Shown here in pieces: positions 2 to 61,772 of a stretch of 64,000 nt of DNA. The position numbers and the translations under genes were made by a program. The DNA comes from Aequorivita sublithincola DSM 14238. GTDB taxonomy: Bacteria > Bacteroidota > Bacteroidia > Flavobacteriales > Flavobacteriaceae. The stretch spans positions 1,515,001 to 1,579,000 of the forward strand of contig NC_018013.1 of the NCBI RefSeq assembly GCF_000265385.1, given 5' to 3'. Numbering within the stretch: the stretch's first letter is position 1; each line of letters starts with the position of its first letter. Under the pieces are notes generated by a model. It was not told the DNA's origin. It searched no databases and saw only the letters and a list, made by a program, of their open reading frames with translations.

Positions 2-2548
2 CTAACTATTTTTTCTTCGGAAGGAAATACTGAGGTAAATGCAATATGCGATGATGAAATTGAAAGCTTTACAGCGCAACAATGGCGTGATTTTTCAGAA
101 ACCAAAAAACAAGAAATTCTTTTAAAATATAGATTAACCTATTTAGCCGAAACCGAAGTAAACTGGTGTCCGCAATTAGGTACCGTTTTGGCAAATGACG
201 AAATAGTGAACGGTGTTTCCGAACGCGGCGGTTATCCAGTAATCCGCAAAAAGATGAAGCAGTGGAGTATGCGAATTACTGCTTACGCCCAGCGCTTACT
301 TGATGGACTCGATAAAATTGACTGGCCGCAACCGTTGAAAGATTCACAAACCAACTGGATTGGACGTTCAAAAGGGGCGACTGTGGAATTCAAGATTCAA
401 GATTCAAGATTCAAGATTCCAGTATTTACAACTAGGCCAGACACAATTTTTGGCGTTAGCTTTATGGTTTTGGCACCAGAACACGATTTGGTTTCAAAAA
501 TTACAACTTCCGAACAAAAAGAAGCAGTTGAAAACTACGTGGAAGCAACTGCAAAACGCAGCGAACGCGAACGAATGGCAGATGTAAAAACTATTTCTGG
601 CGTTTTCACGGGCGCGTATGCAGAGCATCCTTTTTCAGGTGAAAAACTTCCTATTTGGATTGGCGATTACGTTTTGGCAGGCTATGGAACAGGCGCAGTG
701 ATGAGTGTTCCCTGTGGCGATCAGCGCGATTATGATTTTGCAAAACATTTCAATCTGCCAATTCCAAATATTTTTAAGGATGCGGACATTTCTGAAGAAG
801 CTTATTCAGATAAGGATAATACAATCATCACCAACAGCGACTTTTTAAATGATTTAAATTATACTGAAGCCACCGAAAAAATAATTACCGCTTTGGAAGA
901 AAAAGGCGTTGGTGAAGGCAAAATAAATTACCGTTTACGCGATGCTGTTTTTAGCCGTCAACGTTATTGGGGTGAGCCGTTTCCGATTTATTATAAAGAC
1001 GGAATGCCGCACACAATTCCAACCGAATGTTTGCCATTGCGACTTCCCGATGTTAAAAAATATTTACCTACGGAAGAAGGCGAACCGCCGTTGGGACGAG
1101 CTGAAGATTGGGGTTGGGATGTTGAAAAGTTGTCGGTTGTCAGTTGTAAGTTGATTGACAACGAAACCGTTTTTCCTTTGGAATTAAACACCATGCCAGG
1201 TTGGGCGGGAAGTAGTTGGTACTTTTTTAGATATATGGAAAGTGAAAAGCGCAACGAAGTTTTCGCTTCAAAAGAAGCATTGAACTATTGGCAAGATGTT
1301 GACCTTTATATTGGAGGAAGCGAGCACGCAACCGGCCATTTATTATATAGCCGTTTTTGGGTTAAATTTATGCACGATCGCGGATTGGTTCCCGTAGAAG
1401 AACCTTTTAAAAAGCTGATAAACCAAGGAATGATTTTGGGAGAGAGTGCTTTTGCGCATAGAATAAATCAAGGTTATTATAATTACAAAGATGTTTCAGA
1501 TGAAGAATTTGAAAGATTGGATGAGATATTTGACAATCTTTTTAATATTGATTTCACTGGAAGATTAGTTTCTTGGAATTTACTTCACGGGAAAAAAGTA
1601 TTCGATGCAATTGCGGGAGAAAAATATAATCTTAGTGATGTATTTGATTTAAAAGATTTAGAATATTATTTTAAGGAAACTGGTTTTGATTCGAATAAAA
1701 TTTCCTTTACTACAACTAAAATTCACGTTCCTGTTAGTGATGTTGATTTAAAAAATCAAATAATTCTTGAGAGTTTTGCTAAATTCTATCAAGGAGAACT
1801 AGATTCAAATTCTTTATTTTTGAATAATGACGGGAAAATAGAAGTTTCAAGAGAAGTAGAAAAAATGTCCAAATCCAAATACAACGTGGTAAGTCCAGAC
1901 GATATTTGTGAACAATACGGCGCCGATACTTTAAGATTGTACGAAATGTTCCTCGGTCCGCTGGAACAAGCAAAACCTTGGAACACGGCTGGAATTACAG
2001 GAGTTCACGGTTTCCTTAAAAAACTTTGGAAACTGTATCATTCAGGGGAGAACGAAAGTTTTTATGTCTCGGGCGAAACAGCTTCAAAAGATGGTTTGAA
2101 AACACTCCATAAAACCATAAAAAAAGTTCAGGAGGATATTGAGAATTTCAGTTTCAATACTTCAGTTTCATCTTTTATGATTGCGGTAAACGAGCTCTCA
2201 GCAGAAAAATGTAACTCGCGAGAAGTTTTGGAGCCTTTGGCAATTCTTATTTCACCTTATGCACCACATATTGCAGAGGAACTTTGGGAGAAGTTGGGTC
2301 ATTCAGAAAGTATTTCTACAGCACCTTTCCCAAAATTTGAACAGAAATTTTTGGTTGAAAGCAGCAAGGAATATCCAATTTCCTTCAACGGAAAAATGCG
2401 TTATACGCTGGAATTACCGCTCGATTTAACCAAAGATGAAATAGAATCTGCCGTAATGTCACACGAGAAAACTGCCCATTATTTGGAAGGTCGCACTCCT
2501 AAAAAGGTTATAATCGTTCCCGGAAAAATTGTAAATATCGTGGGTTAA
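2..2548 (+). CDS. leuS: Leucyl-tRNA synthetase, 5'-truncated by the window edge
   Basis: Class I aminoacyl-tRNA synthetase that charges tRNA-Leu in the cytoplasm. The reading frame is open from base 2, so the start codon and the HIGH-motif region (about 120 residues by comparison with E. coli LeuRS) lie outside the window. Visible landmarks in order are the NWCP segment, the CP1 editing domain with TTRPDT and its GDxRD motif, MPGWAGSSWY, the KMSKS loop at about base 1862, and the C-terminal anticodon-binding region. Three lineage-specific insertions are visible. Two (bases 388-419 and 1128-1155) consist of heptanucleotide repeats. The third (about 1461-1716) is an AT-rich segment of roughly 85 residues just before the KMSKS region, where LeuRS proteins usually have a shorter linker. 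The frame is intact, so the enzyme is presumably functional. Identification is certain. Confidence 0.97.
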   Translation, partial: LTIFSSEGNTEVNAICDDEIESFTAQQWRDFSETKKQEILLKYRLTYLAETEVNWCPQLGTVLANDEIVNGVSERGGYPVIRKKMKQWSMRITAYAQRLLDGLDKIDWPQPLKDSQTNWIGRSKGATVEFKIQDSRFKIPVFTTRPDTIFGVSFMVLAPEHDLVSKITTSEQKEAVENYVEATAKRSERERMADVKTISGVFTGAYAEHPFSGEKLPIWIGDYVLAGYGTGAVMSVPCGDQRDYDFAKHFNLPIPNIFKDADISEEAYSDKDNTIITNSDFLNDLNYTEATEKIITALEEKGVGEGKINYRLRDAVFSRQRYWGEPFPIYYKDGMPHTIPTECLPLRLPDVKKYLPTEEGEPPLGRAEDWGWDVEKLSVVSCKLIDNETVFPLELNTMPGWAGSSWYFFRYMESEKRNEVFASKEALNYWQDVDLYIGGSEHATGHLLYSRFWVKFMHDRGLVPVEEPFKKLINQGMILGESAFAHRINQGYYNYKDVSDEEFERLDEIFDNLFNIDFTGRLVSWNLLHGKKVFDAIAGEKYNLSDVFDLKDLEYYFKETGFDSNKISFTTTKIHVPVSDVDLKNQIILESFAKFYQGELDSNSLFLNNDGKIEVSREVEKMSKSKYNVVSPDDICEQYGADTLRLYEMFLGPLEQAKPWNTAGITGVHGFLKKLWKLYHSGENESFYVSGETASKDGLKTLHKTIKKVQEDIENFSFNTSVSSFMIAVNELSAEKCNSREVLEPLAILISPYAPHIAEELWEKLGHSESISTAPFPKFEQKFLVESSKEYPISFNGKMRYTLELPLDLTKDEIESAVMSHEKTAHYLEGRTPKKVIIVPGKIVNIVG
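388..419. repeat. Perfect heptanucleotide tandem repeat inside leuS
   Basis: ATTCAAG is repeated four times exactly, followed by a partial fifth copy (ATTC). It encodes EFKIQDSRFKI at the start of the LeuRS editing domain, where other LeuRS proteins have a variable loop. Because 7 is not a multiple of 3, gain or loss of one unit would shift the frame. Confidence 0.9.
1128..1155. repeat. Second, degenerate heptanucleotide block inside leuS
   Basis: Four 7-nt units can be read in register: AGTTGTC, GGTTGTC, AGTTGTA, AGTTGAT. They encode the KLSVVSCKLID segment, which looks like an insertion between the conserved LGRAEDW and MPGWAGSSWY regions. It has the same size and unit length as the block at 388-419 but an unrelated sequence. 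Confidence 0.75.
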
Positions 2549-2587
2549 AAATTTGCACGTTATTTGCTATATTGTAACTGAAGAACC

Positions 2588-2650
2588 TTTGTGTCCTCTG
2601 AGTCTCTGTGGTGAGTTAAGTTTACCTCAGAGGCACAGAGGACACGGAGA
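2588..2650. repeat. Dispersed hairpin repeat after leuS (copy 1)
   Basis: Two 26-nt arms (2588-2613 and 2625-2650) are complementary at about 21 positions and separated by 11 nt. The arms are built of short CTCTGTG-like units. A related sequence, also in inverted orientation, lies at 56120-56170. It separates leuS from the downstream peptidase gene. It lacks a clear T-run, so I regard it as a dispersed repeat rather than a simple terminator. Confidence 0.7.
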
Positions 2651-2679
2651 GAAACAATAAACTTTAAAAAACAAAAACT

Positions 2680-3375
2680 ATGTTTGGATATTATATAATT
2701 GCAGGCCTCATTTTCTTAGTAAGTTGGTTAGTAAGCAACACACTGAAAAGCAAATTCAAAAAGTACAGCCAAGTTCACCTTCAAAATGGAATGAGTGGAA
2801 AGGAAATAGCTGAAAAAATGCTAGCAGACAGCGGAATTACCGATGTAAAAGTGGTTTCCGTAGCTGGTCAATTAACCGATCATTACAACCCAGCAGATAA
2901 AACCGTAAACTTAAGTGAAGCGGTATATATGCAGCGTAACGCCGCTGCTGCTGCTGTTGCAGCTCACGAATGTGGTCACGCAGTGCAACACGCCACAGCT
3001 TACAGTTGGCTGAAAATGCGTTCTGCGATTGTGCCTGCGGTAGGAATAGCCAGTAAATTATCCAACTTTGTAATTATGGCTGGTTTAATAATGACTGCTA
3101 TGAACATTATGGGGGTTTTAGGGAATACAATATTTTTCATAGGAATTCTACTTTTTGCAGCTACAACAGTTTTCGCGTTTATCACCTTACCAGTAGAATA
3201 TGATGCTAGTAACCGTGCATTAGCTTGGTTGGAAAGCAGTAAAATGGTAACTCCGCAAGAACACGAAGGTGCAAAAGATGCTTTAAAATGGGCAGCTAGA
3301 ACTTATGTGGTTGCAGCAATTGGTTCGCTGGCTACCTTATTATACTTCATCTCTATTTTTATGGGAAGGAGATAG
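2680..3375 (+). CDS. Membrane zinc metallopeptidase, YugP family
   Basis: Predicted integral-membrane zinc-dependent peptidase of the Zn_peptidase_2 (YugP-like) family; substrate unknown. The 231-residue length fits the family. There is an N-terminal membrane helix (about residues 3-18) and a soluble segment. The HECGH zinc-binding helix with its catalytic Glu follows at about residues 95-99. Hydrophobic segments at about 112-135 and 140-165 and one at the C-terminus complete it. It is read in the same direction as leuS, 131 nt downstream and beyond a hairpin repeat, so it is probably its own unit. A bidirectional terminator follows. Family assignment is firm; physiological role is not known. 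Confidence 0.88.
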   Translation: MFGYYIIAGLIFLVSWLVSNTLKSKFKKYSQVHLQNGMSGKEIAEKMLADSGITDVKVVSVAGQLTDHYNPADKTVNLSEAVYMQRNAAAAAVAAHECGHAVQHATAYSWLKMRSAIVPAVGIASKLSNFVIMAGLIMTAMNIMGVLGNTIFFIGILLFAATTVFAFITLPVEYDASNRALAWLESSKMVTPQEHEGAKDALKWAARTYVVAAIGSLATLLYFISIFMGRR

Positions 3376-4555: not shown

Positions 4556-4568
4556 ATTTAATATTCTA

Positions 4569-15241: not shown

Positions 15242-16402
15242 TTAGTTTTTGATGGTTACTTTTTGGCCATCGCGAAGAGTTTTTGCACCCTCCTTAATAA
15301 TGGTATCGCCTTTTTTAAGGCCTGATTTTACTTCTGTATGGTTTTCATAAGAAAGCCCCGTTTCAATAATAACACGCTTTGCGATGCCTATTGAATCATT
15401 TACAGGTTGATATAAGTAGGCGATGGTTTCACCTGCCGCATTTTCCTGTAAAATATTTTCTGGAACGGTAATGGCGTTTTCGGCGCTGTAATCGTTCACT
15501 TTTACTGTTGCGATAAGGTTTGGTTTTACTAAACCGTCTTTATTAGGAATTTCAACTTGAATATCAAAACTTCTATTGTTCGGGTTAATGTAATTGCTCA
15601 CTTGGCGTACCGTGCCAGTGAATTCCTCATTAATGGAAGCTAGGTTTACTTTTACCTTCGTGCCTTTTTTAATATTTCTAAGATAGTTTTCTGGAATAGA
15701 TGCTTTCACATACATATCGCTCAAATTAACTAAACGTATAATTGGCGTTTGGCCTGGACTAACCACTTGTCCTGGATCTGCGATAATTTCGTCAATTATA
15801 CCACTGAAGGGAGCTGTAATAACTGTTTTTCCTAATTGAGAACGCATTTGTTGGGTTGCATTTTTTGCAGCTTCGTAATTTGTTTTAGCTTGAAGAAATT
15901 GAATTTCGGAACCTATTTTTTGGTTCCAAAGTTTTTCCTGACGCTCAAAAGTGGTTTTAGCCAAAGCTAATTGAGCCTCTTGCTGCGCCACTTGGCTAGA
16001 CATTCCGCCATCGTCAATTTTTGCCAATCGCTGCCCTCTTGAAACACGCTGCCCTTCCTTAACATATACACTTATTAATACTCCTGAATACTCAGCGTTT
16101 AAAACTACGTTTTGATTTGTTTCAACATTTCCCTGAACTTCTACGTAATGTTTAAAGATGGTATCTTTTATAACTTCTGCAGTAATAAGGACCGGACGTT
16201 CCTTTTTTTCGTGAGAATCTATGTACTCATTCAGTTTGTCAATATCTGTTTTTAGATCGCGTTGCTGTTTATTTAGTTCAGCACGTTTAGCTTTTACTGA
16301 AGCCATATCGTTGGAACTGATAATTGCATCAACAGATTTATTATCACCTCCGCAAGAAATCAGTGTGATGATTGTTATTAATATTAGGAGTAATTTTTTC
16401 AT
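15242..16402 (-). CDS. RND efflux periplasmic adaptor lipoprotein
   Basis: Membrane-fusion protein linking the RND pump to the TolC-like channel. The N-terminus is a lipoprotein signal with lipobox LISC (Cys near residue 17). A predicted coiled-coil stretch (about residues 38-63) comes next. The family core follows: barrel/lipoyl segment around GVLISVYVKEGQRVSRGQRLAKID, the alpha-hairpin (about 135-190), the second lipoyl half (VITAPFSGIIDEI) and the beta-barrel. The 386-residue length is normal. It lies 15 nt upstream of the pump gene and 35 nt downstream of the channel gene, so the three are co-transcribed. Confidence 0.93.
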   Translation of the reverse strand: MKKLLLILITIITLISCGGDNKSVDAIISSNDMASVKAKRAELNKQQRDLKTDIDKLNEYIDSHEKKERPVLITAEVIKDTIFKHYVEVQGNVETNQNVVLNAEYSGVLISVYVKEGQRVSRGQRLAKIDDGGMSSQVAQQEAQLALAKTTFERQEKLWNQKIGSEIQFLQAKTNYEAAKNATQQMRSQLGKTVITAPFSGIIDEIIADPGQVVSPGQTPIIRLVNLSDMYVKASIPENYLRNIKKGTKVKVNLASINEEFTGTVRQVSNYINPNNRSFDIQVEIPNKDGLVKPNLIATVKVNDYSAENAITVPENILQENAAGETIAYLYQPVNDSIGIAKRVIIETGLSYENHTEVKSGLKKGDTIIKEGAKTLRDGQKVTIKN

Positions 16403-18570: not shown

Positions 18571-19551
18571 ATGTCGATGGATTTTTTGAAAAAATATAAT
18601 GTAGAGCTTCATCAATATCTTGAAAAGGCTGTTGCTCAAAAAGAACCGAACCAGCTTTATGATCCTATAAAGTATATCCTTTCTTTGGGAGGCAAAAGAA
18701 TTCGCCCCAAGCTTACCTTAATGATTTGTGATTTTTTTGGAACTGATTTTAAAAAGGCAATGAACGCAGCGTTGGCTGTGGAGCTTTTTCATAATTTTTC
18801 GCTCATTCATGATGACATTATGGATAATGCCCCCTTGCGAAGAGGAAAAGTAACTGTTCATGAAAAATGGGACGTAAACACCGCAATACTTTCTGGTGAT
18901 GCGATGCTAATTTTAGCCTATCAATTTTTTGAAAGCTACGAACCCAAAATGTTTCAGGAATTAGCGAAGCTTTTCAGCGAGACCGCTTTACAAGTTTGCG
19001 AAGGTCAACAACACGATATGGATTTTGAAACCCGTGATGATGTTATATTGGGGGAATACATTAACATGATAGGCCAAAAAACCGCCGTACTTCTTGGTGC
19101 TGCTATGAAAATGGGCGCTATTGTTGCCGAAGCTTCAAAGCGCGATAAGGAAATAATCTATCTTTTTGGAGAAAATTTAGGTATTGCGTTTCAGTTACAG
19201 GATGACTATTTAGATGTCTTCGGAAATCCTGAAACCTTCGGAAAACAGGTTGGTGGCGATATTATTTCGAATAAAAAAACCATTCTTTATATATTGGCAA
19301 TAAATTCAAGTACACAAGCCCAAGCGGAGGAACTTGAGCATCTTTTCAGCATAAGTCCTAAAGATGCAACAGATAAAATTGCAACGGTTAAGGAGATTTT
19401 TATTGCTTCCGGAGCAGCCAACGCAACACAATCAAAAATTGAAGAATATAGTAATTTTGCATACGCACTTTTAGATGAAATCACTATTTCCGAAGAAAAG
19501 AAGCAGCTACTTCGCAATTTTGGAAATGATTTGATGCAGCGAAACGTTTAA
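18571..19551 (+). CDS. Polyprenyl (isoprenyl) diphosphate synthase
   Basis: Trans-prenyltransferase that elongates allylic diphosphates with isopentenyl diphosphate, feeding quinone, carotenoid or cell-wall lipid synthesis. The 326 residues contain GGKRIRPKL near residue 43, the first Asp-rich motif DDIMD near residue 82 with the following RRG, and the second motif QDDYLDVFG near residue 210. I chose the ATG at 18571 (MSMDFLKK); an earlier in-frame GTG at 18529 adds an unconserved tail. Chain length cannot be decided by eye. It is divergent from the tetR operon. Its stop overlaps that of the convergent barrel gene by 4 nt. Confidence 0.9.
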   Translation: MSMDFLKKYNVELHQYLEKAVAQKEPNQLYDPIKYILSLGGKRIRPKLTLMICDFFGTDFKKAMNAALAVELFHNFSLIHDDIMDNAPLRRGKVTVHEKWDVNTAILSGDAMLILAYQFFESYEPKMFQELAKLFSETALQVCEGQQHDMDFETRDDVILGEYINMIGQKTAVLLGAAMKMGAIVAEASKRDKEIIYLFGENLGIAFQLQDDYLDVFGNPETFGKQVGGDIISNKKTILYILAINSSTQAQAEELEHLFSISPKDATDKIATVKEIFIASGAANATQSKIEEYSNFAYALLDEITISEEKKQLLRNFGNDLMQRNV

Positions 19552-37347: not shown

Positions 37348-37372
37348 ACTGTGAACTGCAACTGTAAACTGC
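37348..37372. repeat. Degenerate 7-nt repeat upstream of asnS
   Basis: ACTG recurs at 37348, 37355, 37361 and 37368 (spacing 7, 6, 7) with A/G-rich filler. It ends at the stop codon of the MMPL-type gene. A weak member of the heptamer-block family. Confidence 0.5.
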
Positions 37373-42221: not shown

Positions 42222-42223
42222 GG

Positions 42224-42310: not shown

Positions 42311-42315
42311 TATTT

Positions 42316-53584: not shown

Positions 53585-56026
53585 TTAATTTTGCTTGATA
53601 AACTTCTTCGATATACTGTTTTGTTTCAAATCCTTCAATTTAATAATATAGATTCCGTTGGAAAGTGTTGCAATATTTAAGGAGTTGATACCTTCTGTAT
53701 TTTGAATACTTAAAAGATTTTGCCCCAATTCATTGTAAACAACTACTTCCACAATAATTGAATTGCTTTTAATATTTAAAATATCGCTGGTTGGAACTGG
53801 ATAAAGTACTGTAGCGTCTAAATTGTTGTCTTCCACGGCTAAAGTTCCGAAATTATCATACCATTTAAGCTTATCTCCAAGCAAAGCTCCTGCTAAAAGG
53901 TCCATTTTTCCGTTGTTGTTAAAATCGGCAGTATCAAGAGATAAGACACCATTTATATTCGTGTCGATTATATGTTGAGGGCCGAAATTTCCTTGACCAT
54001 CCATGTTTTCGTACCATGAAACAGTATCTGCTGTGTAATCTGCTACAAACACATCCAAATCTCCATCTTGGTCTGCATCGATTGTTCTGATTCCTTCTGG
54101 TGTAGTAGGAGAAGGATTAGCAATAATTTTTCTGGGACCAAAAGTTCCGGTTCCATTTATGTTTTCGTACCAAACAACCATACCTTCACGAGTAATAGAA
54201 CCAAGAATATCAATGTCTCCGTCGCCATCAAGATCTGAGTAGTAAATTTCGATAGCTCCCAGTATATTATCTTCTATAATTTTCTTCGGTCCAAAATTTC
54301 CTTGTCCATCTAAGTTTTCATACCAAGCAAACATTTTATCTTGGCTGTAAATAGCTGTAATAATATCTTTGTCGCCATCGCCATCTATATCTACCGTATG
54401 AATAGATTCTGAATATCCAATAAATCCATCAATTATCTGTGCTTGTCCGAAATTTCCCAAACCATTTAAATTTTCAAACCAGGTTAATCCCAAATTGAAG
54501 TCGAAAACAATTACATCTTTATCACCATCTGCATCTAGATCATCTGAAGTCACAAACGATGGGTCTTGAAAATCTGAAGCAAAGGGCGGTTGCTGTATAA
54601 AATTTCCTTGTCCATCTATATTTTTAAACCAAGTGGCAAGATTGTTTTCGTTCGTAGCGGATAAAACATCCATGTCACCATCACCATCAAGATCTGCCAC
54701 GAAAACAGATTGCACATAGTTTAGATTTTCGGCTACTATTCTTGTAGGCCCAAAATTACCTTGACCATCTGTATTTTTATACCAAGTAATAGTTTCTGCG
54801 TCTGCATTTGCAGAAATAGCATCTATATTGCCATCGCCATCAATATCTGCAGCTTGTACAGAATAAGATCCTTGCGCACCGTCTATAATGCTTAAAACAA
54901 TTTCAACGACGTAAGAGTTTTGCCCGTTATTTGGTGTCCAAGCTACTTTGTCTTGATAAATATTTCCAGTAATTATGTCTAAACCTCCATTACCATTTAT
55001 ATCTGCAAAATTTAAAATAGTTATTCGTTCAGTGGCTTTAAGTATTTGTTTGTTTCCAAAATCTCCTAGACCATTCAGGTTTTCATACCAAACAATGTCA
55101 CCATTCACTTGGGCTAGAATATCCAAATCTGCATCTTGGTCAAAATCTTTAAATTGAAAATAGGAAACATTATCTGCTATGAGAGTTTGTGCTGTGGAAA
55201 AATTTCCTTGGCCATTTAAGTTTTCATAATAAATAAGTTCACCGTCTTTATTGGTTACAATATCGTTATCTCCATCGGCATCAACATCAAAACCATAGAG
55301 GGCGTACACATTAAAACGGGCGTCATCAATAAGTTGCTCAGGGCCATAATTTCCTTGCCCATTCAGGTTTTCAAACCATACGGTTTTAGGCCCATAAAGC
55401 GTGGAACTTATAATATCTAAATCTCCATCGCCATCAAGATCCGAAACGGCTATATGTATGGCTCGGTCAACATTGTTGCTTATTAGATTTTCAGGGCCAA
55501 AATTTCCTTGTCCGTTTGTATTTTCAAACCAGATTATTTTATTAGTATCTGCCGAAGTTGCCAAGACATCCATATCTCCATCGCCGTCAATATCTGTAGC
55601 TATGGAATTAGAGATTCCATTTACACTATTAGTAATTAATCTTGGAGAACCAAAATTTGCGGAACCATCATTTTTAAACCAAAATATTTTTCCTTTTTCA
55701 GCTGAAGAAACTAGAATATCTATATTGCCATCGTTGTCGAAATCTACGGCACTTGCATTAAAAGGAGAAATAACATCCAAAGAAATAATTTGTTGCGCTC
55801 CCAGATTTCCAGCGCCATCATTTTTATACCAAGCAACTTTACTATCGTATTCCGAAGCTGAAACTAAATCCAAATGGCCGTCGCCATCAAGATCGGCTGC
55901 AAAAGCAGCTCTTGGAGCATTGGTGCTTCCTTGGTCTATAATAATTCGGGGATGGAAGTTTATCTGTGCATTGGAGTTAATGAATAAAGCACAGGCAATG
56001 ATTGTGGGGAGTAATAATGGTTTCAT
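53585..56026 (-). CDS. Secreted FG-GAP/VCBS-repeat protein with T9SS sorting domain
   Basis: An 813-residue surface or secreted protein. Signal peptide (ending NSNA), then about fourteen to sixteen repeats of 45-50 residues. Each carries a calcium-binding loop of the type DxDGDGDxD and a WYxNxxGxGNFG segment, as in FG-GAP/VCBS beta-propellers. The last 75 or so residues (LYPVPTSDILNIKSN to LKQNSISKKFIKQN) are an intact type A T9SS tail. Such proteins often mediate adhesion, but no ligand can be inferred. The internal repeats are similar at the DNA level, so the copy number may be unstable. Confidence 0.88.
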   Translation of the reverse strand: MKPLLLPTIIACALFINSNAQINFHPRIIIDQGSTNAPRAAFAADLDGDGHLDLVSASEYDSKVAWYKNDGAGNLGAQQIISLDVISPFNASAVDFDNDGNIDILVSSAEKGKIFWFKNDGSANFGSPRLITNSVNGISNSIATDIDGDGDMDVLATSADTNKIIWFENTNGQGNFGPENLISNNVDRAIHIAVSDLDGDGDLDIISSTLYGPKTVWFENLNGQGNYGPEQLIDDARFNVYALYGFDVDADGDNDIVTNKDGELIYYENLNGQGNFSTAQTLIADNVSYFQFKDFDQDADLDILAQVNGDIVWYENLNGLGDFGNKQILKATERITILNFADINGNGGLDIITGNIYQDKVAWTPNNGQNSYVVEIVLSIIDGAQGSYSVQAADIDGDGNIDAISANADAETITWYKNTDGQGNFGPTRIVAENLNYVQSVFVADLDGDGDMDVLSATNENNLATWFKNIDGQGNFIQQPPFASDFQDPSFVTSDDLDADGDKDVIVFDFNLGLTWFENLNGLGNFGQAQIIDGFIGYSESIHTVDIDGDGDKDIITAIYSQDKMFAWYENLDGQGNFGPKKIIEDNILGAIEIYYSDLDGDGDIDILGSITREGMVVWYENINGTGTFGPRKIIANPSPTTPEGIRTIDADQDGDLDVFVADYTADTVSWYENMDGQGNFGPQHIIDTNINGVLSLDTADFNNNGKMDLLAGALLGDKLKWYDNFGTLAVEDNNLDATVLYPVPTSDILNIKSNSIIVEVVVYNELGQNLLSIQNTEGINSLNIATLSNGIYIIKLKDLKQNSISKKFIKQN

Positions 56027-56119
56027 CCGTTTCTTTTAAAGATTCGCAATATATTAAAATTTGATTAAAGGAGAAACGATGATTGAAGTTTAAAATTATT
56101 TGGTGATTTTCTTTTTGTT

Positions 56120-56170
56120 CTATGTGACTTCGTGGTAAAATAAAACCACGGAGGCACAGAGGGCATAGAG
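56120..56170. repeat. Dispersed hairpin repeat (copy 2)
   Basis: A left arm (56120-56136) pairs with a right arm starting at 56145. Compared with the right arm, the left arm lacks one 7-nt unit (CCCTCTG). The right arm is clearly related to the hairpin at 2588-2650. It lies in the 166-bp gap upstream of the FG-GAP gene and downstream of pntB. Confidence 0.7.
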
Positions 56171-56192
56171 TTTTGAGAAGGAAGGGTTGCTT

Positions 56193-57581
56193 TTATATCA
56201 ACTTCAACTGATTAACGATTTCCTGTAAAGAAACCTTCGCATCACCAAAAAGAATACTGCAATTATCTAAACCAAAAAGGTCGTTCTGCACGCCAGCATA
56301 GCCTTTTCCCATACTTCGTTTCATAACAATTACCTGCTTACTTTCGTGGGTGCGAATAATTGGCATTCCGTAAACTGGGCTGTCTGGATTGTTTTCGGCT
56401 GCGGGGTTTACAACGTCGTTTGCTCCAATTACTAAAACAGTGTCATATTGTGCCATGTTTTCATTGCCCTCGTCCATTTCCTTTAATCGGGAATAATCTA
56501 CGTTTGCTTCAGCTAGAAGCACATTCATATGTCCTGGCATACGTCCTGCTACTGGATGGATTATGTAATCTACTTCGCAATTTCTCTTTTCTAATAATTG
56601 CTGAAGTTGAGCACAAAGATGTTGTGCTTGTGCCACTGCAAGTCCATATCCCGGAACAATCGCCACTTTTTGAGCAAATGAGAGTGAAAGAGCTGTTTCA
56701 GAAATACTAATTTCCTTTATTTCCTGCTCTTCTTCAACTGCGCCGTTTTTGCTCTTTTTAAAAGTTCCTGCAAGTACTTTCAACAACGAACGGTTCATCG
56801 CTTTACACATTAAAAGTGTAAGTAATATTCCAGCCGCGCCCACAAAAATACCACCGGCAATCATCACTTTGTTTCCGTAAACGAAACCTGCGAAAGCTGT
56901 GGCTATACCTGTAATACTATTCAAAAGTGAAATTACAACTGGCATATCTGCGCCGCCAATAGGAAGAACAAATAGCACTCCGTAAACCATTGCTAAAGTT
57001 GCCAAAACATACATAAAAGCACTAAAGCCAATAGGAATGAAGCCGAAGAAATAAAGCACTGGTAACAAAACCATTAAAACTAAGAGTATTCTTGCTGAAA
57101 AGATTACGGTTTTAGTTCGTCTGTCTTTTACTTTTCCAGCTAGTTTTCGCTCTGCGATTATACTTCCTGTTAGAGCAACAGCACCAGTTATTAAACCTGC
57201 AATAAGTAGAATTTTATTCCCTAAGACTGCTGTTGTAATATCCATTTGATTAGCTTCCACCAATCCTAAAAGCATTGCACATCCACCGCCAGTTGCGTTG
57301 AACAACGAAACTAATTGTGGCATTCCGGTCATTTCAACTTTATCAGAAAGGCGTTTACCCATCACAGTTCCCACGGCTATTGCCAAAAACATAATTATTA
57401 AATTTGTGAACGGTACAGTATCTGTTAAAGCAGCTATAAAGGTAAGAACAACAGCCAAAACCATTCCCATAGCGGCTATTAGATTTCCTGTCATTGCTTT
57501 TTTTGGGGAACTCATAAACTTCAATCCTACTAAAAAGGAAAGGGTGGCGATTAAATAACCTATTTCTATGAATGCGTGCAT
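56193..57581 (-). CDS. pntB: NAD(P) transhydrogenase beta subunit
   Basis: Proton-translocating transhydrogenase subunit that makes NADPH from NADH using the proton gradient. The 462 residues form eight to nine membrane helices (about 5-270) followed by the NADP-binding domain III, with VAIVPGYGLAVAQAQH near residue 310 and VLVIGANDVVNPAA near residue 393. It is the last gene of the order pntA part 1, pntA part 2, pntB, separated from part 2 by a repeat cassette. Confidence 0.95.
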   Translation of the reverse strand: MHAFIEIGYLIATLSFLVGLKFMSSPKKAMTGNLIAAMGMVLAVVLTFIAALTDTVPFTNLIIMFLAIAVGTVMGKRLSDKVEMTGMPQLVSLFNATGGGCAMLLGLVEANQMDITTAVLGNKILLIAGLITGAVALTGSIIAERKLAGKVKDRRTKTVIFSARILLVLMVLLPVLYFFGFIPIGFSAFMYVLATLAMVYGVLFVLPIGGADMPVVISLLNSITGIATAFAGFVYGNKVMIAGGIFVGAAGILLTLLMCKAMNRSLLKVLAGTFKKSKNGAVEEEQEIKEISISETALSLSFAQKVAIVPGYGLAVAQAQHLCAQLQQLLEKRNCEVDYIIHPVAGRMPGHMNVLLAEANVDYSRLKEMDEGNENMAQYDTVLVIGANDVVNPAAENNPDSPVYGMPIIRTHESKQVIVMKRSMGKGYAGVQNDLFGLDNCSILFGDAKVSLQEIVNQLKLI

Positions 57582-57618
57582 TTTCTTCTGAAATTATTTT
57601 GGTTGGGTTTTAAGGGAG

Positions 57619-57695
57619 ATAGGACGAAAGGACATAAGACATAGGACTGATTTTTTTGACGAAACCGTCTTATGTTCTAAGTAATTTAGTCTTAG
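57619..57695. repeat. Inverted pair of heptamer-like blocks between pnt genes
   Basis: Left arm 57619-57647: ATAGGAC, GAAAGGAC, ATAAGAC, ATAGGAC (7, 8, 7, 7 nt). Right arm 57667-57695, read on the other strand: CTAAGAC, TAAATTAC, TTAGAAC, ATAAGAC (again 7, 8, 7, 7). The arms have the same unit pattern and can pair over about 29 nt with mismatches. The cassette fills the 115-bp gap between the alpha-2 and beta genes. Confidence 0.75.
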
Positions 57696-57696
57696 T

Positions 57697-57993
57697 TCAT
57701 TTTTTAGGACTGAACATTTTGAGCATTCGTCCTGTAACAAAAAATCCTCCGGAAATATTTAGTGTACCGAGAAAAACGGCAATTCCGCCTAAAGCAAGAT
57801 TTAAATAATCGTCCTCTGGCACTCGGAGCATCACAATAACTGCTCCCACCAAGATAACACCGCTAATTGCGTTGGCGCCAGACATAAGCGGAGTATGCAG
57901 GATGGATGGAACATTGGCGATTACTTCAATGCCAATAAAGACACAGAAAATAACAAAATAAATTTCTTGAATGTGTAGGTTGATGAAATCCAT
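57697..57993 (-). CDS. NAD(P) transhydrogenase alpha subunit, part 2 (membrane)
   Basis: A 98-residue protein with three membrane helices (about 10-28, 40-58, 65-85) that corresponds to the C-terminal membrane domain of E. coli PntA, encoded as a separate gene. The sequence around SILHTPLMSGANAISGVILVGA matches this domain. It starts 3 nt after the part 1 stop. Split alpha subunits are usual in many bacteria. Confidence 0.92.
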   Translation of the reverse strand: MDFINLHIQEIYFVIFCVFIGIEVIANVPSILHTPLMSGANAISGVILVGAVIVMLRVPEDDYLNLALGGIAVFLGTLNISGGFFVTGRMLKMFSPKK

Positions 57994-57996
57994 AAT

Positions 57997-59133
57997 TTAG
58001 GCTGGTTGTAGGTTTTTGTTGAAATGTGGATGCGTCCATTCGCCTTCGTTCAATATTTGACTGCCGGTTAGTAATGGATCGTTGGTTTGGGTTTCCGCCT
58101 TTTGTTTGTATTTTAAAAAGGAAAAGAAATTATTCGAAAGCAATTTTGAAGCTGCTGCCGGAATTTCTGCAGAAAGACTTGAGTTTCCTAAAATAGTAAC
58201 TCCGTGATGTAATACAACTTCTTTGTTTTTTGAAAGTTCGCAGTTTCCACCTTGTTCCGCGGCGAGGTCAATAATAACGCTTCCGGGTTGCATTGCTTCA
58301 ACAGAGCGGGTTTCGATAAGCAAAGGTGCTTTTCTTCCAGGAATGTTTGCCGTACTTATTACGATATTTGAAGATTGAATATGATTATGAATCAATTCTT
58401 TTTGCTTTTTTTGATATTCTTCGCTTTGCTCTACGGCGTAGCCTCCAGCATTTGCGGATTCCGTATATCCTTCTACTTCTATAAAGGTTGCACCAAGGCT
58501 TCTAACTTCTTCACCCGCAGATTTACGCACGTCAAAAGCTTCCACCATTGCGCCCAAACGACGCGCAGTTGCTATAGCCTGAAGACCTGCAACACCTGCG
58601 CCTAAAACTAAAACTTTTACTGGAGTAAGCGTTCCTGCGGCGGTTGTAAACATTGGAAACACACCATCATAAATTTCGGAAGCTTTTATTACCGCTCTAT
58701 AACCTGCCAAAGAAGCCATAGATGAAAGTACATCCATAGATTGCGCTAAAGTGGTTCGAGGCAAAAGGTCTAAACTGTAAACGGTTGCGCCGTGTTTTTT
58801 GTAGATAGCGAGTTTAGTGTCATGAAAAAGAGGGTTGAAAATACCAATGAAACAACAACCTTGTTTAATTTCATCTTCATCGCTAAACGTGTGATTAATA
58901 GATACAATGGTATCTGAATTTTTAAAAATAAATTCCCGAGATTGGCTCGTAGCTCCTGCCTGAATATATTCTTCATCTTCAATTTGAAGCGTACTTCCTA
59001 GACCGGGCTCAAAAAGAATGTTGAGGTTTAATTCTCCTGCTAGACGTTTTACTTCTTTAGGCAACAAACAAACCCGCGGATCGTTTGGGGTTTTTAAGAT
59101 TCCAATGGTTTTTGGCTGTAGCTGTTCGCTCAT
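57997..59133 (-). CDS. NAD(P) transhydrogenase alpha subunit, part 1 (NAD-binding)
   Basis: Soluble domain I of the transhydrogenase, related to alanine dehydrogenase, 378 residues. Visible are the N-terminal KTPNDPRVCLLPKEV segment and the NAD-binding Rossmann motif VLVLGAGVAGLQAIATARRLGA near residue 170, followed by VEAFDVRKSAGEEVRSLGA and a C-terminal substrate-like region. It is first of the three pnt genes and 29 nt downstream of an unknown gene. Confidence 0.94.
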   Translation of the reverse strand: MSEQLQPKTIGILKTPNDPRVCLLPKEVKRLAGELNLNILFEPGLGSTLQIEDEEYIQAGATSQSREFIFKNSDTIVSINHTFSDEDEIKQGCCFIGIFNPLFHDTKLAIYKKHGATVYSLDLLPRTTLAQSMDVLSSMASLAGYRAVIKASEIYDGVFPMFTTAAGTLTPVKVLVLGAGVAGLQAIATARRLGAMVEAFDVRKSAGEEVRSLGATFIEVEGYTESANAGGYAVEQSEEYQKKQKELIHNHIQSSNIVISTANIPGRKAPLLIETRSVEAMQPGSVIIDLAAEQGGNCELSKNKEVVLHHGVTILGNSSLSAEIPAAASKLLSNNFFSFLKYKQKAETQTNDPLLTGSQILNEGEWTHPHFNKNLQPA

Positions 59134-59162
59134 AAATATTTTTTGAATTTTTTTCTACTTGC

Positions 59163-59543
59163 TTATTTCAGCAAAATATTGAAATATTCTTCTTTAACTT
59201 CTCGGTAGTCTGCTAAATGCCTCATATAAGCATTTCTGAATTTTTCATGCTCGGAGATAAAATACATATCACATTCCACGTCTTCACATTCTACAGCTTT
59301 TGGCAAGCCATCTTTATATTTTTCAAAATCTCTTAATTTTTCAGCATTTTTATCTTTTTCAGATATAAATTTTAAAAGAACAGGATGAGATTCTGAATTA
59401 ACGGTAAGTTCTGACTTTCCAAGATTTACCAAATTGGTTATTTCTTTTTCAATATAATTAAGGTGGTCAATCCAATTTTCCAGCTCTATATAATTATTTT
59501 TAAAAGTAATTGCTTCTTGAGAATCGTGATTATAAATTTGCAT
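59163..59543 (-). CDS. Unknown small cytoplasmic protein, helical
   Basis: A 126-residue Lys/Glu-rich protein, probably alpha-helical with coiled-coil tendency (residues 12-45 and 95-124). It has two Cys-containing positions in EDVECDMYF but no metal motif. I do not recognise a family. It is read between the GreA/Rnk-like gene's terminator and the pnt genes on the same strand, so it may head the pnt transcript. Confidence 0.6.
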   Translation of the reverse strand: MQIYNHDSQEAITFKNNYIELENWIDHLNYIEKEITNLVNLGKSELTVNSESHPVLLKFISEKDKNAEKLRDFEKYKDGLPKAVECEDVECDMYFISEHEKFRNAYMRHLADYREVKEEYFNILLK

Positions 59544-59568
59544 GCTATTTGTTTTAATGTTTCATTAA

Positions 59569-59610
59569 AAAAGACTTTAGACGAAAGTATTTCTTCAGCT
59601 AAAGTCTTTT
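59569..59610 (-). terminator. Terminator after the GreA/Rnk-like gene
   Basis: An 11-bp stem AAAAGACTTTA/TAAAGTCTTTT with a 20-nt loop, 5 nt beyond the stop at 59616. A- and T-runs flank it. Confidence 0.85.
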
Positions 59611-59615
59611 ATTTT

Positions 59616-60032
59616 CTATAATAGAACGTCTATGTCTATCGGTTTTTCTGCTTGCTTTACGCTTGTTATTTGCAGTTCCTTGGCTCCGTTTGGAAAATTC
59701 CAGATTACTGAATCTTCCTCGGCATAGCCCATAACTGCAGAGCCCATCGGCGCCAAAATGGAAATCTTGTTTGCCGCAATATCGCGCTCAGTTGGAATTA
59801 CCAATTGAAATTCTGTCTCCCAAGTTCCTGATTTTACCGTAACAATACTGTTGAATCGGATTACGTCTGTAGGCATTTCATCATGATCACAAATACGTGC
59901 GGTGGTCATCTCGGCACTTAGTTTTTTTAAGGAATCTTTCGTGTTTTCGTCTTTATAATAGCCGGAAACATTCAAAAGACGTTTCAAAAAAACGTATTCT
60001 TTTTTTTCCAATATCAAATTTCCATATTTCAT
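59616..60032 (-). CDS. GreA/GreB C-terminal domain protein (Rnk-like)
   Basis: A 138-residue protein with a short helical N-terminal part and the FKBP-like C-terminal domain of GreA/GreB (about residues 58-130: IVTVKS to QLVIPTERD, then SILAPMGSAVMGYAEEDSVIW). It lacks the long GreA coiled coil, so it resembles Rnk-type proteins that bind RNA polymerase without transcript-cleavage activity. It is single, between an inverted repeat upstream and a terminator downstream. Confidence 0.85.
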   Translation of the reverse strand: MKYGNLILEKKEYVFLKRLLNVSGYYKDENTKDSLKKLSAEMTTARICDHDEMPTDVIRFNSIVTVKSGTWETEFQLVIPTERDIAANKISILAPMGSAVMGYAEEDSVIWNFPNGAKELQITSVKQAEKPIDIDVLL

Positions 60033-60056
60033 CTCGTCGTATATTTTTCAATGTAA

Positions 60057-60113
60057 AATGGGACATCTTCAGGAATTGATATTCGTTTCCCGAAAAATAA
60101 AAGATGTCCCATT
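60057..60113. repeat. 13-bp inverted repeat after the glutamate dehydrogenase gene
   Basis: AATGGGACATCTT (60057-60069) and AAGATGTCCCATT (60101-60113) are perfectly complementary with a 31-nt loop holding a small TTCG/CGAA stem. It may terminate the dehydrogenase message or be a regulator site before the Rnk-like gene. There is no U-run on the minus strand. Confidence 0.7.
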
Positions 60114-60125
60114 CACAATTTTTTA

Positions 60126-61421
60126 TTATGGGAAAATTCCTCTTAAAATGTATGCCTTTTCAATTCGCGCTATTGCGATACTGAAAGCAGCGGTACGCAT
60201 ATCGATATTGTTTTCTTCGGAATATGCAGTAACTTTTTTGAAGGTAGTGCGAAGTTTTTTCTCCAGCTTCTCCAAGATTTCGTCCATTTGCCAAAGTTCT
60301 CCGTTACGGTTTTGAAGCCATTCAAAATAACTTCCTATAACCCCTCCAGAATTACACATAATGTCTGGAATTATGGTGATGCCGCGTTCTATCAATATTT
60401 TTTCGCCTTCAACGTCTGTTGGGCCGTTGGCTCCTTCAGCAATTAAAGATGCTTTTATTGACCTTGCATTATCTTTAGTAATCTGGTTGCCCAATGCTGC
60501 TGGTATGCAGATGTCGCAATCTAAGGCGAAGAAATCTTTACCTTCCATTGCAGAAGCTTCTGGGAAACCTACAATGCTGCCATTATTGGCTTTTCCGTAG
60601 TTGAAAAGATCCTCAACAGTAATTCCTTTTTGGTTTTGAACACTTCCGAAGGCATCTTGAACACCTACTAAAAGTGCACCTTCATTTTCAAGAAAATGTG
60701 CAGCCCAATAGCCTACATTTCCAAAACCTTGAACGATGAATTTTTTACCTTTTAAAGTTTCGTTGTTCTTTTCCGACCAAAATTTGATGGTTAAATATAC
60801 GCCGTAACCAGTAGCGCGATCGCGACCTTCCAAACCACCGCTACCTACTGGTTTTCCTGTAACTACGTGCTGGTTTTTAGAACGTTCGCTGGTACTTTTA
60901 GTACTCATATAAGTATCCGCAATCCAAGCCATTGTTTGGTCGTTGGTGTTTACGTCTGGTGCAGGAATGTCATGTTCTGGACCAATGTTTTCACCCAAAG
61001 CATATGTGAATCTACGCGTAATACGCTCCAATTCACCTTTTGAATATATTGAAGGATCAATCTGGATTCCTCCTTTTGCACCACCGTAAGGCAAACCTGC
61101 CAAAGAAGTTTTCCAAGTCATCCACATAGCCAAAGCGCGAGCTGCATCAATATCTACCGTTGGGTGATAGCGAAGACCACCTTTGTATGGTCCAAGTGCA
61201 TTGTTATGCTGCACACGGTAGCCTGTGAATACTTCTACCTCGCCATTGTCCATCCGCACTGGAAAGTGAATGATGATTTCGGTGTTAGTGATGCTAAGAA
61301 TTTTGCGAACGTTTGGATTCAGATCTATTTTATCTGCAGCGCTGTTGAATTGTTCCAACACGTTGTCCAACATTCCTCTTTTTAATGGTTTGGGTTTTTC
61401 CACTGTTTGTTCGTTTGTCAT
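60126..61421 (-). CDS. Glutamate dehydrogenase (hexameric, RocG/GudB-like)
   Basis: Interconverts glutamate with 2-oxoglutarate and ammonia. The 431-residue length and motifs GPYKGGLRYHP, KTSLAGLPYGGAKGGI (catalytic Lys) and the Rossmann GFGNVG near residue 240 place it in the small hexameric class with RocG/GudB. These are mostly NAD-linked and catabolic. Coenzyme choice is inferred, not proven. No housekeeping -7 box is seen upstream. Instead a sigma-54-type promoter lies 130 nt before the start, and the adjacent upstream genes encode an NtrC-type activator and its kinase. Confidence 0.93.
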   Translation of the reverse strand: MTNEQTVEKPKPLKRGMLDNVLEQFNSAADKIDLNPNVRKILSITNTEIIIHFPVRMDNGEVEVFTGYRVQHNNALGPYKGGLRYHPTVDIDAARALAMWMTWKTSLAGLPYGGAKGGIQIDPSIYSKGELERITRRFTYALGENIGPEHDIPAPDVNTNDQTMAWIADTYMSTKSTSERSKNQHVVTGKPVGSGGLEGRDRATGYGVYLTIKFWSEKNNETLKGKKFIVQGFGNVGYWAAHFLENEGALLVGVQDAFGSVQNQKGITVEDLFNYGKANNGSIVGFPEASAMEGKDFFALDCDICIPAALGNQITKDNARSIKASLIAEGANGPTDVEGEKILIERGITIIPDIMCNSGGVIGSYFEWLQNRNGELWQMDEILEKLEKKLRTTFKKVTAYSEENNIDMRTAAFSIAIARIEKAYILRGIFP

Positions 61422-61550
61422 TTTATTATTATTTAATTGTTGCCATTTCTGGCTTACTAGTTTTTATTTTCAACAATGTTCTCTGGTTTGGTGCTAATAT
61501 TCTCAAAAAACACTTTAAAACCGTGTTACTTATTGTTTGCCATTGCTATT

Positions 61551-61566
61551 GGCAATGTGTGTGCCA
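61551..61566 (-). promoter_or_regulatory. Candidate sigma-54 promoter for the glutamate dehydrogenase gene
   Basis: On the minus strand, TGGCAC (61566-61561), 5 nt, then TTGCC (61555-61551). The invariant GG and GC are separated by exactly 10 nt, as sigma-54 requires; only the last base differs from the TTGCW consensus. The predicted start is near 61540, giving a leader of about 119 nt. Confidence 0.65.
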
Positions 61567-61651
61567 TCAAATCTAATTGTCATTGAATTATGATTAAGGG
61601 GCTATAAAGCAATACGTTAAGTAATTTTAAGTAAATTTCTATTCTGAAGTT

Positions 61652-61684
61652 ATTGGGGAAAAATTCCAGCATTGGGGAAAAATT
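61652..61684. promoter_or_regulatory. Two 14-bp direct repeats, candidate activator sites
   Basis: ATTGGGGAAAAATT occurs identically at 61652-61665 and 61671-61684, 19 bp apart start to start, close to two helical turns. They lie about 112 to 144 bp upstream of the predicted sigma-54 start, the normal distance for enhancer sites of NtrC-type activators. Confidence 0.55.
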
Positions 61685-61714
61685 ACTCACCTAGATTTAA
61701 ATTTCAAAAATAAA

Positions 61715-61772
61715 AAACCAAATTCCAGAGTCGGAATTTGGAGTTTGGTTTTTGGAATTTGACATTTGGTGC
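61715..61772. repeat. Heptanucleotide block downstream of the NtrC-type gene
   Basis: Six consecutive 7-nt units at 61731-61772: TCGGAAT, TTGGAGT, TTGGTTT, TTGGAAT, TTGACAT, TTGGTGC. A shorter inverted arm at 61715-61728 reads CTGGAAT, TTGGTTT on the other strand. With the sites above it fills the 361-bp gap between the dehydrogenase gene and the regulator gene; no coding sequence is seen there. Confidence 0.8.

Follow-up and report, generated by a model that had tools for sequence, protein, structure and literature searches.

Repeat Blocks in the Window

The window, that is, the whole stretch of 64,000 nucleotides of the Aequorivita sublithincola DSM 14238 genome analyzed here, carries short repeat blocks inside leuS, in spacers and at the ends of ORFs, and around pntB, nine of which had been listed as heptamer blocks by a sequence-only reading. 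Two of them lie in leuS on the plus strand: a perfect (ATTCAAG)x4.6 block read as IQDSRFK (388-419), and (AGTTGTC)x3.7 (1128-1153), which is one allele of a variable loop. At 42224-42256, about 4.6 units of ATTTAAT/GATTTAA/GATTCAA are adjoined by a perfect 20-bp hairpin, TTGCCACGAATTCACGAATA (42259-42310), a near copy of which is found at L047:19309. On the minus strand, GGAATTT-type heptamers at 61688-61771 form an inverted pair with a terminator-like stem and a T tail; the array at 61733-61769 reaches 5.3 copies at 73% and is accompanied by an inverted arm. The GGAATTT-type pattern has nine hits elsewhere in the A. sublithincola genome and none for the reversed pattern, in a search whose 3-mismatch limit leaves the window copy itself outside. 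The stretch at 23063-23103 shows 6-8- and 14-nt periodicity. Among the five blocks exceeding chance it ranks last, because it is A-rich, its lag 6 scores nearly equal to lag 7, and its lag 14 scores higher.

The remaining four were not confirmed as heptamer blocks. The inverted pair GACGGATGTTTGATGA / TCATCAATCATCCGTC (35730-35809) lies between two minus-strand ORFs. In an ACTG-cored block at 37348-37372, where the minus-strand ORF 37373-39763 has its adjoining 3′ end, the units run 7+6+7 and the TRF period is 13. After the pntB stop, 56120-56170 had been read as two arms that differ by exactly one 7-nt unit; it is instead a CTCTGTG-type hairpin of 8-9-nt units, and by eye similar hairpins stand at the orthologous place in three of 20 relatives (L021, L027, and L028). 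Upstream of pntB, CATAAGA/AGGACAT blocks form an imperfect hairpin on the minus strand (57619-57695), and by eye several relatives carry in its place a plain hairpin, CATAAG...CTTATG, with T after it. Another CTCTGTG-type hairpin, of 7-9-nt units and absent from the earlier list, lies downstream of leuS on the plus strand (2591-2645).

Excess of the Seven-Base Period

Period scans were scored with a mismatch value of -2 (strict) or -1 (lenient). At strict scores of at least 12, the window has three period-7 segments (388, 1129, and 42224), where 0.0 were expected, and none at periods 5, 6, and 8-11. At lenient scores of at least 14 there are five (388, 1129, 23063, 42224, and 61696-61768), against an expectation of 0.1 and a maximum of 1 across 20 simulations, and at lenient scores of at least 16 three period-7 segments and none at periods 5, 6, and 8-11. 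Thus, the listed blocks at 388, 1128, 42224, 61715 and, weakly, 23063 beat chance as heptamer arrays, but the other four do not: 35735 scored only 10 (lenient, period 7), where 1.6 segments are expected in the window, and 57619 only 8, where 10.2 are expected.

A larger sample of 464 kb of the genome, consisting of the window and 20 evenly spaced 20-kb stretches, was compared with ten order-3 Markov simulations. At strict scores of at least 12, period 7 gave 11 intergenic and 5 coding segments against 0.0 and 0.0 expected, period 14 gave 8 and 3, period 21 gave 9 and 1, and all other periods reached at most 3 in either class. In this sample, period 7 exceeds the simulated background and, its own multiples aside, all other periods. 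Tandem 7-nt copies in excess of a random model are a feature shared with heptanucleotide long simple sequence repeats. Chance acting on an AT-rich composition may seem adequate for the four of nine listed blocks that fail to beat it, but it is already excluded for the arrays, with 16 segments observed where 0.0 were expected and with another array of the genome, L227, running to about 21 near-perfect units; as a general account its probability is virtually nil. Array L238 (28.6 units) contains a run of N and was excluded. By a crude ORF call, 40 of the 52 placed arrays (53 in all) are intergenic.

The seven-base step is outstanding in the A. sublithincola genome but not in every relative. Around pntB in 20 relatives (340 kb), of which 17 are named Aequorivita, periods 6, 12, and 18 gave 3, 4, and 3 segments vs. 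2, 0, and 2 for periods 7, 14, and 21. Five "rich" and fifteen "zero" genomes were also compared; they had been picked by hits in an earlier repeat-pattern search, and 5 of the 20 stretches chosen in one sampling step did not exist. In G005 (140 kb), period 7 was primary in no segment and period 8 in eight; an 8-nt ruler there was rejected, as all eight arrays sit at one place.

Inverted Partners and Folding

The blocks had been described as often occurring in inverted pairs, and a process that makes inverted partners had been suggested. Neither is general: an inverted match of at least 15 nt within 120 nt was found for 3/53 arrays and 1/424 controls, and most arrays have no partner. With at least 13 nt the counts are 6/53 and 7/424, and with at least 12 nt 8/53 and 22/424. 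Compared with shuffled versions, folding is stronger in five stretches containing listed blocks (z -3.05 to -7.2), including 35730-35809 (z -4.2) and 57619-57695 (z -3.05); shuffles folding as well numbered 3/200 for 57600-57720 and 1 for 56110-56180. In 42215-42320, the strong hairpin (z -7.2) adjoins the listed block and is not the block itself, and the unlisted stretch 2580-2660 reaches z -8.25. We take the inverted pairs to be mostly hairpins or terminators with arms built of heptamer units. Hairpins as a general source of the 7-nt period were considered and found unconvincing: in 17 strong hairpins from the 464 kb, identity was 0.320 at lag 7, 0.329 at lag 8, and 0.24-0.31 at lags 3-6.

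Several of these pairs fold well, one with a T tail, although terminator-like sites in 56000-62000 do not outnumber those in shuffles (5 vs. 4.6). Of 40 arrays, 16 lie directly at a stop codon where 9.1 would be expected, by a distance window chosen post hoc, in a position test from which the 12 coding rows of 52 were omitted; start codons showed no enrichment in it (6 vs. 7.3 expected). These observations would suit arrays kept by selection as terminators, three-frame stop backups, or protein-binding sites. Such selection is nevertheless decidedly unlikely, as related species differ erratically in whether a given place has an array, the text of the units is not conserved, and 15 of 50 units contain no stop on either strand.

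Orthologous Spacers

Four spacers, selected for a long array in G000, were sought in 27 relatives and recovered from 10-22 of them, so that with G000 included spacers A, B, C, and D are represented in 23, 20, 22, and 11 of 28 genomes. Spacer A, which follows the stop codon of one gene, holds (AGTAGTC)x12 in G000, AGTAGTC x7.6 in G011, AGTGGTC/AGTAGTC x6.7 in G016, (GCTGTAA)x10 in G008, (TTAGCAA)x8 in G006, and a CAAATAC type in G026; 17 of the 23 recovered spacers have no heptamer array. By eye, the stop codon lies within the first unit in G000 and G006 and within the first, 8-nt, unit in G008. Spacer C holds (TAGTTTG)x7.9 in G000, (TAGTTGA)x19 in G008, and (GTTGTCG)x4.6 in G016. Spacer D holds (AGGGATT)x7.7 in G000, (GTAATGA)x3.6 in G022, and GTAGTGA in 8.4 copies in G021, 5.4 in G001, and 3.3 in G007, with shorter forms by eye in G018 and G015; in G021, GTAATGA is found only as the first unit of the GTAGTGA array. 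At spacers A, B, and D, species differ from one another by whole units in the copy number of a locus. Of 30 arrays in the four spacers, one was dropped as a run of N; period 7 is found in 22 of the other 29, or 18 of 25 without G000, not all of them independent.

These spacers show that different heptamers have been born in place at one spot, several of them starting at the stop codon of the gene. The claim of 7-nt tandem copying with text that differs by place is thereby borne out, as births, copy steps, and homogenization of units are all seen at orthologous positions. Since different repeats arise at the same spots, the 7-nt step seems due to a copying process and not to a mobile element. 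Because separately born texts mostly step by 7 in Aequorivita spacers, unit length becomes separable from unit sequence.

Repeats inside leuS and metH

The block at 388-419 occupies the stretch that leads up to the TTRPDT motif in the LeuRS editing domain and aligns without gaps to T. thermophilus LeuRS 1h3n. In relatives it is replaced by other repeats; its units are all ATTCAAG in the window, whereas in G015 a block of equal length has mixed CAAA/CAGA units. The block may be old, because 70 of 101 readable public LeuRS sequences from several genera, a list biased toward the window's own text, have IQNSEF-like text of the same length at this position. At the second site (1128-1153), the window allele has 38 residues between anchors, as plain alleles do, and simple heptamer alleles leave the plain length unchanged at both sites. 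An inverted heptamer pair in leuS gives 39-40 residues vs. 24, a loop longer by 15-16 residues, and non-heptamer palindromes in metH lengthen the protein in frame. The first leuS site was recovered from 27 of 28 genomes (G014 is broken over contigs) and the second metH site from 21 of 28. Dispersed palindromes, TCGAGCGCAGTCGAGA and CCCCCTTTGGGGGCAAGGGGG among them, take the same positions in other species at the leuS, metH, and spacer sites. At the leuS and metH sites, repeat turnover reaches into essential proteins.

Rickettsia palindromic elements are in-frame repeats tolerated inside essential genes, where they lengthen the protein. The inverted heptamer pair of leuS, the metH palindromes, and DUF559 inserts resemble them in this respect, but the simple leuS heptamer alleles, which keep the plain length, do not. 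As separate observations, LeuRS and MetH loops carry interchangeable in-frame repeats, and DUF559 is carried by some LeuRS, MetH, and RecG proteins. The number of DUF559 copies and the count of AGTNGTC gave rho 0.36 and p 0.058, and no link is claimed; no literature was found linking DUF559 to leucyl-tRNA synthetase or to Bacteroidetes repeats.

In leuS, allele class shows no tree signal: it changes 14 times, against a mean of 15.6 for shuffled classes (P 0.20), on a tree of leuS alone with several weak branches. This would suit interspecies homologous recombination over conserved flanks as the explanation of the allele patchwork, but that explanation is very unlikely, since recombination moves alleles and makes neither new period-7 texts nor graded copy numbers.

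Recurrence of Units and Candidate Agents

That the units are unrelated between loci, as had been stated, holds only in part: 17 locus pairs have a common class where 1.92 are expected, an excess that rests partly on one genome (G065). The units of 50 arrays fall into 38 classes. AGTNGTC is present in 19 of 28 genomes, with 324 overlapping hits vs. 1 for the reversed pattern. With so many classes, there is no shared conserved palindromic unit of the REP/RAYT kind, and the units abut without the unique spacers of CRISPR or other spacer arrays. Units show no strand asymmetry, the mean absolute keto skew being 0.324 vs. 0.344 in random local heptamers. A count of units on the leading strand (11 vs. 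4) was discarded because the assumed origin is not supported by GC skews.

Identical units at unrelated loci and genomes would be accounted for by a RAYT-like or other mobile family whose enzyme copies preformed heptamer blocks to new places, and so would the dispersed palindromes and the 15-16 loop residues added by the inverted pair in leuS. By eye, several arrays also have right-hand flanks with A runs and TAAACT octamers in common, L229 in the manner of spacer A. Against this, the unit text of spacers A and D derives from the local gene end, flanks in 20 stretches with arrays are mostly dissimilar by eye, and simple leuS heptamer alleles match plain alleles in length. REP/RAYT elements are intergenic palindromes, and REP-like repeats are present in the genomes examined; the arrays differ from them in having many units and mostly no inverted partner. 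The expectation that a RAYT-like enzyme gene would follow the repeats was not upheld for AGTNGTC, the only array family counted per genome across the genus: RAYT (PF01797) number and AGTNGTC count are uncorrelated (rho 0.11, p 0.56, 28 genomes). Six of nine RAYT-free genomes have AGTNGTC hits, and a seventh, G007, has none, yet carries long arrays of other heptamers. On this measure RAYT was rejected as the agent, and a mobile family in general is quite unlikely.

Probably, the heptanucleotide repeats are born in place by a slippage-type local duplication with a preferred step of 7 nt. We infer that the agent is replication slippage. A short pre-existing repeat, at several loci one that overlaps a stop codon, would duplicate to a few units, and the young array would then gain, lose, and homogenize units. 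Arrays would persist where neither text nor length is constrained, namely just after stop codons, in spacers, and in terminators, and also in protein loops when the unit contains no stop in whichever frames are read. MutS is present in 28 of 28 genomes, and therefore no loss of mismatch repair has to be assumed; MutS is not known to handle 7-nt loops. Several observations count against birth by local duplication. First, recurrence of units at unrelated loci (17 vs. 1.9 pairs) is not predicted by random seeds. Second, slippage alone gives no reason for 7. Third, period 7 does not lead everywhere, as in the pntB region of relatives and in G005. Fourth, the leuS block at 388 may be too old for a recent birth, judging from the public LeuRS sequences. 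An activity of the cell that measures out 7 nt and favors particular unit texts (AGTNGTC, GG[GA]ATTT, AGGGATT, ATTCA[AG][AG], and AACCTGA), writing and rewriting short tandem blocks at gene ends and in protein loops across the Flavobacteriaceae, is unlikely; on this reading the recurring texts would reflect its template or sequence preference instead of chance seeds.

Relation to Known Heptamer Repeats

This repeat architecture had been taken as undescribed for Bacteroidota, which is wrong. According to MacGregor (2015, PMC4679880), TAACTGA direct repeats occur in five Bacteroidetes including A. sublithincola DSM 14238, as well as in Beggiatoaceae and Cyanobacteria, and other heptamer repeats occur in TAACTGA spacers of A. 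sublithincola and Gramella forsetii. No literature was found joining heptanucleotide tandem intergenic repeats with Flavobacterium. That study resembles the present case in having heptamers in spacers and in naming A. sublithincola; for both sets of that species, which have other heptamers beside them, the A. capsosiphonis counterpart is without obvious repeats (PMC4679880). It centers on one unit, with Beggiatoaceae copies mostly upstream of start codons, whereas the Aequorivita arrays have many units and are often at stop codons.

Heptanucleotides are the most abundant class of long repeats in most genomes (Mrazek 2007, cited in PMC4679880), and their dominance among long bacterial repeats has been a standing question since 2007 (MacGregor 2015, PMC4679880). 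As cited there, the long repeats of Mrazek (2007) are alike in their over-represented 7-nt unit, their scatter between species, and the polymerase slippage proposed for them; the Aequorivita arrays differ in that orthologous spacers show different units at one place, at stop codons, and in that in-gene and inverted forms are compared across species. The question of heptamer dominance thereby becomes testable with a few cultured species. The GGGNATC repeats known from Xanthomonas and the Nostoc repeats GGGGA(T/C)T (Rehm 2015, PMC4692102) also combine conserved and variable unit positions and include some inverted pairs, but they represent one G-rich family per genome studied, whereas Aequorivita has many texts.

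Heptamer periodicity in the genome

The 7-nt period, first proposed from the sequence alone, is borne out in a 464-kb sample of this genome composed of the window (positions 1,515,001-1,579,000 of one 3,520,671-bp contig) and 20 evenly spaced 20-kb stretches. At a score of at least 12, period 7 gives 11 self-match segments in spacers and 5 in ORFs (16 altogether) versus 0.0 expected each from ten order-3 Markov simulations. It ranks first, ahead of 14 and 21 with 8 and 9 spacer segments; all the remaining periods give at most 3. The primary period of this genome's 44 arrays is 7 in 16, 14 in 2 and 21 in 5. Examples of arrays are (AGTAGTC)x12, a run of roughly ten AGTGGTC, (TAGTTTG)x8 and (AGGGATT)x7.7.

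Period 7 does not dominate everywhere. Across 340 kb surrounding pntB in 20 relatives (20 named loci encoding a pntB relative, 17 of them from Aequorivita), periods 6, 12 and 18 give 3, 4 and 3 segments, and periods 7, 14 and 21 give 2, 0 and 2. The genome G005 has no array with a primary period of 7 in the 140 kb examined; its eight period-8 arrays all lie at one place. Period-7 arrays are present in 4/5 family members with matches to a GGAATTT pattern and absent from 300 kb of fifteen members without a match, both sets having been selected by this pattern, which matches 27 of 120 genomes.

Only some of the blocks listed by the sequence-only reading are heptameric. The blocks at 388, 1128 and 42224 exceed chance under strict scoring (mismatch -2; 3 found vs 0.0 expected in the window), and lenient scoring (mismatch -1) adds those at 61696-61768 and 23063 (five vs 0.1 expected), the last of which is A-rich and also shows periodicity at further lags. 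The others did not hold: the block at 37348 has a 7+6+7 structure, that at 56120 is built from 8-9-nt units, and those at 35735 and 57619 are weakly periodic hairpins. A terminator-type stem with a T tail lies at 61718-61741 on the same strand as the genes on either side, and terminator-like matches in the stretch around it are no commoner than in shuffled sequences. Near-identical perfect hairpins, CCACGAATTCACGAAT...ATTCGTGAATTCGTGG, occur at two separate places, 42259-42310 of the window and 19309-19356 of the fetched stretch L047, and related half sites at genome positions 3215 and 1344928.

Different heptamers at one orthologous place

Four orthologous intergenic spacers (A, B, C and D), all carrying arrays in the window's own genome (G000), were recovered as 23, 20, 22 and 11 copies among 28 genus genomes including G000. 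Spacer A, which lies directly downstream of a stop codon, carries AGTAGTC in G000 (12 copies) and G011 (7.6), GCTGTAA in G008 (10), TTAGCAA in G006 (8), mixed AGTGGTC/AGTAGTC units in G016 and a CAAATAC-type array in G026; the remaining 17 of the 23 copies have no heptamer array. By eye, the opening unit of the array contains the stop codon in G000, G006 and G008, this unit being 8 nt long in G008. In spacer B, AGTGGTC is present in five species (6.7-11 copies) and a hexamer in one further species, and other species have a REP-like palindrome; spacer C holds TAGTTTG (7.9), TAGTTGA (19) and GTTGTCG (4.6) in three species. In spacer D, AGGGATT (7.7 copies in G000) is replaced by GTAGTGA in three other genomes (8.4, 5.4 and 3.3 copies; by eye, shorter in two more) and by GTAATGA in G022 (3.6 copies); at this spacer the array, judged by eye, supplies the gene's stop codon. 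Period 7 is found in 22 of the 29 arrays over the four spacers, or 18/25 without G000, counts in which one unit's arrays in several species are possibly not independent. Therefore, the text changes at orthologous spacers and the period mostly stays, and the comparison of the same intergenic regions, suggested by the sequence-only reading for close strains, reveals differences between species in unit text and copy number.

By eye, the place of the 61715 block, recovered from 18 relatives, holds GGAATTT hairpins, GATTTC hexamers, and CAATACT or CCACTTC blocks, and that of the 57619 block is a plain CATAAG...CTTATG hairpin in several relatives, from which the CATAAGA units at 57619 could have grown. 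Heptamer-to-heptamer transitions lie at 16065-16220 and 17344-17442 of L124 and 5999-6110 of L044 (fetched stretches); text switches between adjoining blocks (for example, AACCTGC to AACCTGA and ATTACTA to CTACTCA) are, by eye, in one 7-nt phase.

Possible origin of the arrays

The arrays probably arise by in-place, slippage-type duplication with a 7-nt step. Local duplication is thus the part of the earlier guess at a copying process that we retain, but the proposed RAYT-like enzyme does not track the repeats: RAYT (PF01797) matches are found in 19/28 genus genomes, and their count is correlated neither with matches to AGTNGTC, a recurrent heptamer family (rho 0.11), nor with REP-like TCGAGCGCAGTCGAGA (rho 0.14). 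The latter, at no more than 1 mismatch, has 1-90 matches per genome in 28/28 Aequorivita and none for the reversed pattern. MutS was found in all 28 genomes.

Unit sequences had been thought unrelated between loci. Their text does differ at orthologous places, but 17 locus pairs share a unit class versus 1.9 expected, with no more than 8 in any of 300 draws, and AGTNGTC has 324 overlapping matches in 19/28 genomes versus 1 for the reversed pattern. Around arrays in 20 fetched stretches, mostly of AGTNGTC type, flanks are mostly dissimilar by eye, and several right flanks have A runs and TAAACT octamers in common. Recurring texts do not fit local seeding, which should yield random texts; such texts are either more prone to slippage or the product of a different kind of copying.

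Heptamer repeats as a kind are already known from the available parts of two papers. TAACTGA heptamers, with other heptamers beside them, have been described with A. sublithincola named (MacGregor, 2015; PMC4679880), so the architecture is not new to Bacteroidota as had been supposed, and GGGNATC heptamers occur in part as inverted pairs, like some arrays here (Rehm, 2015; PMC4692102). Mrazek (2007), as reported in PMC4679880, found that, in most genomes, no other class of long repeat is as common as heptanucleotides, and suggested that 7 nt might be the length of the stretch that the polymerase holds. The same-place, different-text comparison does not appear in those parts of PMC4679880 or PMC4692102.

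Inverted pairing and position relative to genes

Blocks had been described as often in inverted pairs. Folded inverted blocks do exceed shuffled sequences in stability, but a long inverted partner lies near only 3/53 arrays (vs 1/424 controls); pairing is therefore a real but minor companion of the arrays. A stop codon is touched by 16 of 40 intergenic arrays versus 9.1 expected from random placement in the same spacers, where touching means an array edge from -25 to +8, a range set after the list was seen, so that P = 0.005 is optimistic. Start codons show no excess (6/40 vs 7.3). Upstream of start codons in several spacers (loci L175, L177, L189, L190, L229 and L232) are runs of 8-9 nt built around a TAAC or TAAACT core (for example, AATAACTCAATAACTT), close in kind to the TAACTGA repeats of MacGregor (2015).

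Repeats inside LeuRS, MetH and RecG

The leuS 388 block lies directly before TTRPDT and aligns without gaps to T. thermophilus LeuRS. At this point, of 27 genomes, 7 have heptamers, 7 an inverted heptamer pair or what remains of one, 8 a DUF559 domain, 2 a repeat of TCGAGCGCAGTCGAGA type and 3 plain sequence; simple heptamer alleles have the plain length and inverted pairs are longer. Allele class is distributed without signal over the leuS tree, with 14 changes against a mean of 15.6 in shuffles (P 0.20). IQNSEF-like text of the 26-residue length occurs there in 70 of 101 readable LeuRS from several genera (among the best 120, with search words drawn from this same region), suggesting that the block may be old and perhaps merely homogenised in the window's genome.

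By our reading, the leuS 1128 point has four allele kinds in 27 genomes, namely heptamer (6), REP-like (2), CCCC-type palindrome (7) and plain (12), heptamer and plain alleles being all of the same length. Read likewise, a loop in metH holds ATTCAGA heptamers in 6 of 21 genomes, CAAATCC heptamers in 6, REP-like repeats in 2, CCCC palindromes in 4 and, in 3, a different REP-like repeat accompanied by remnants of heptamers; within this loop, a 42-nt in-frame insert distinguishes G019 from G022.

An in-frame DUF559 (PF04480) domain, mostly between translated CCCC...GGGG palindromes, is found within Aequorivita LeuRS (loci L061-L065 and L073-L075), MetH (L198-L199) and RecG (L097, L098, L103 and L105), and PF04480 is among the domains of 10 of the best 120 public LeuRS. 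Among the species compared, at plus-strand loci only, leuS residues ~427-505 (window ORF 188-2548) differ almost wholly in sequence and length.
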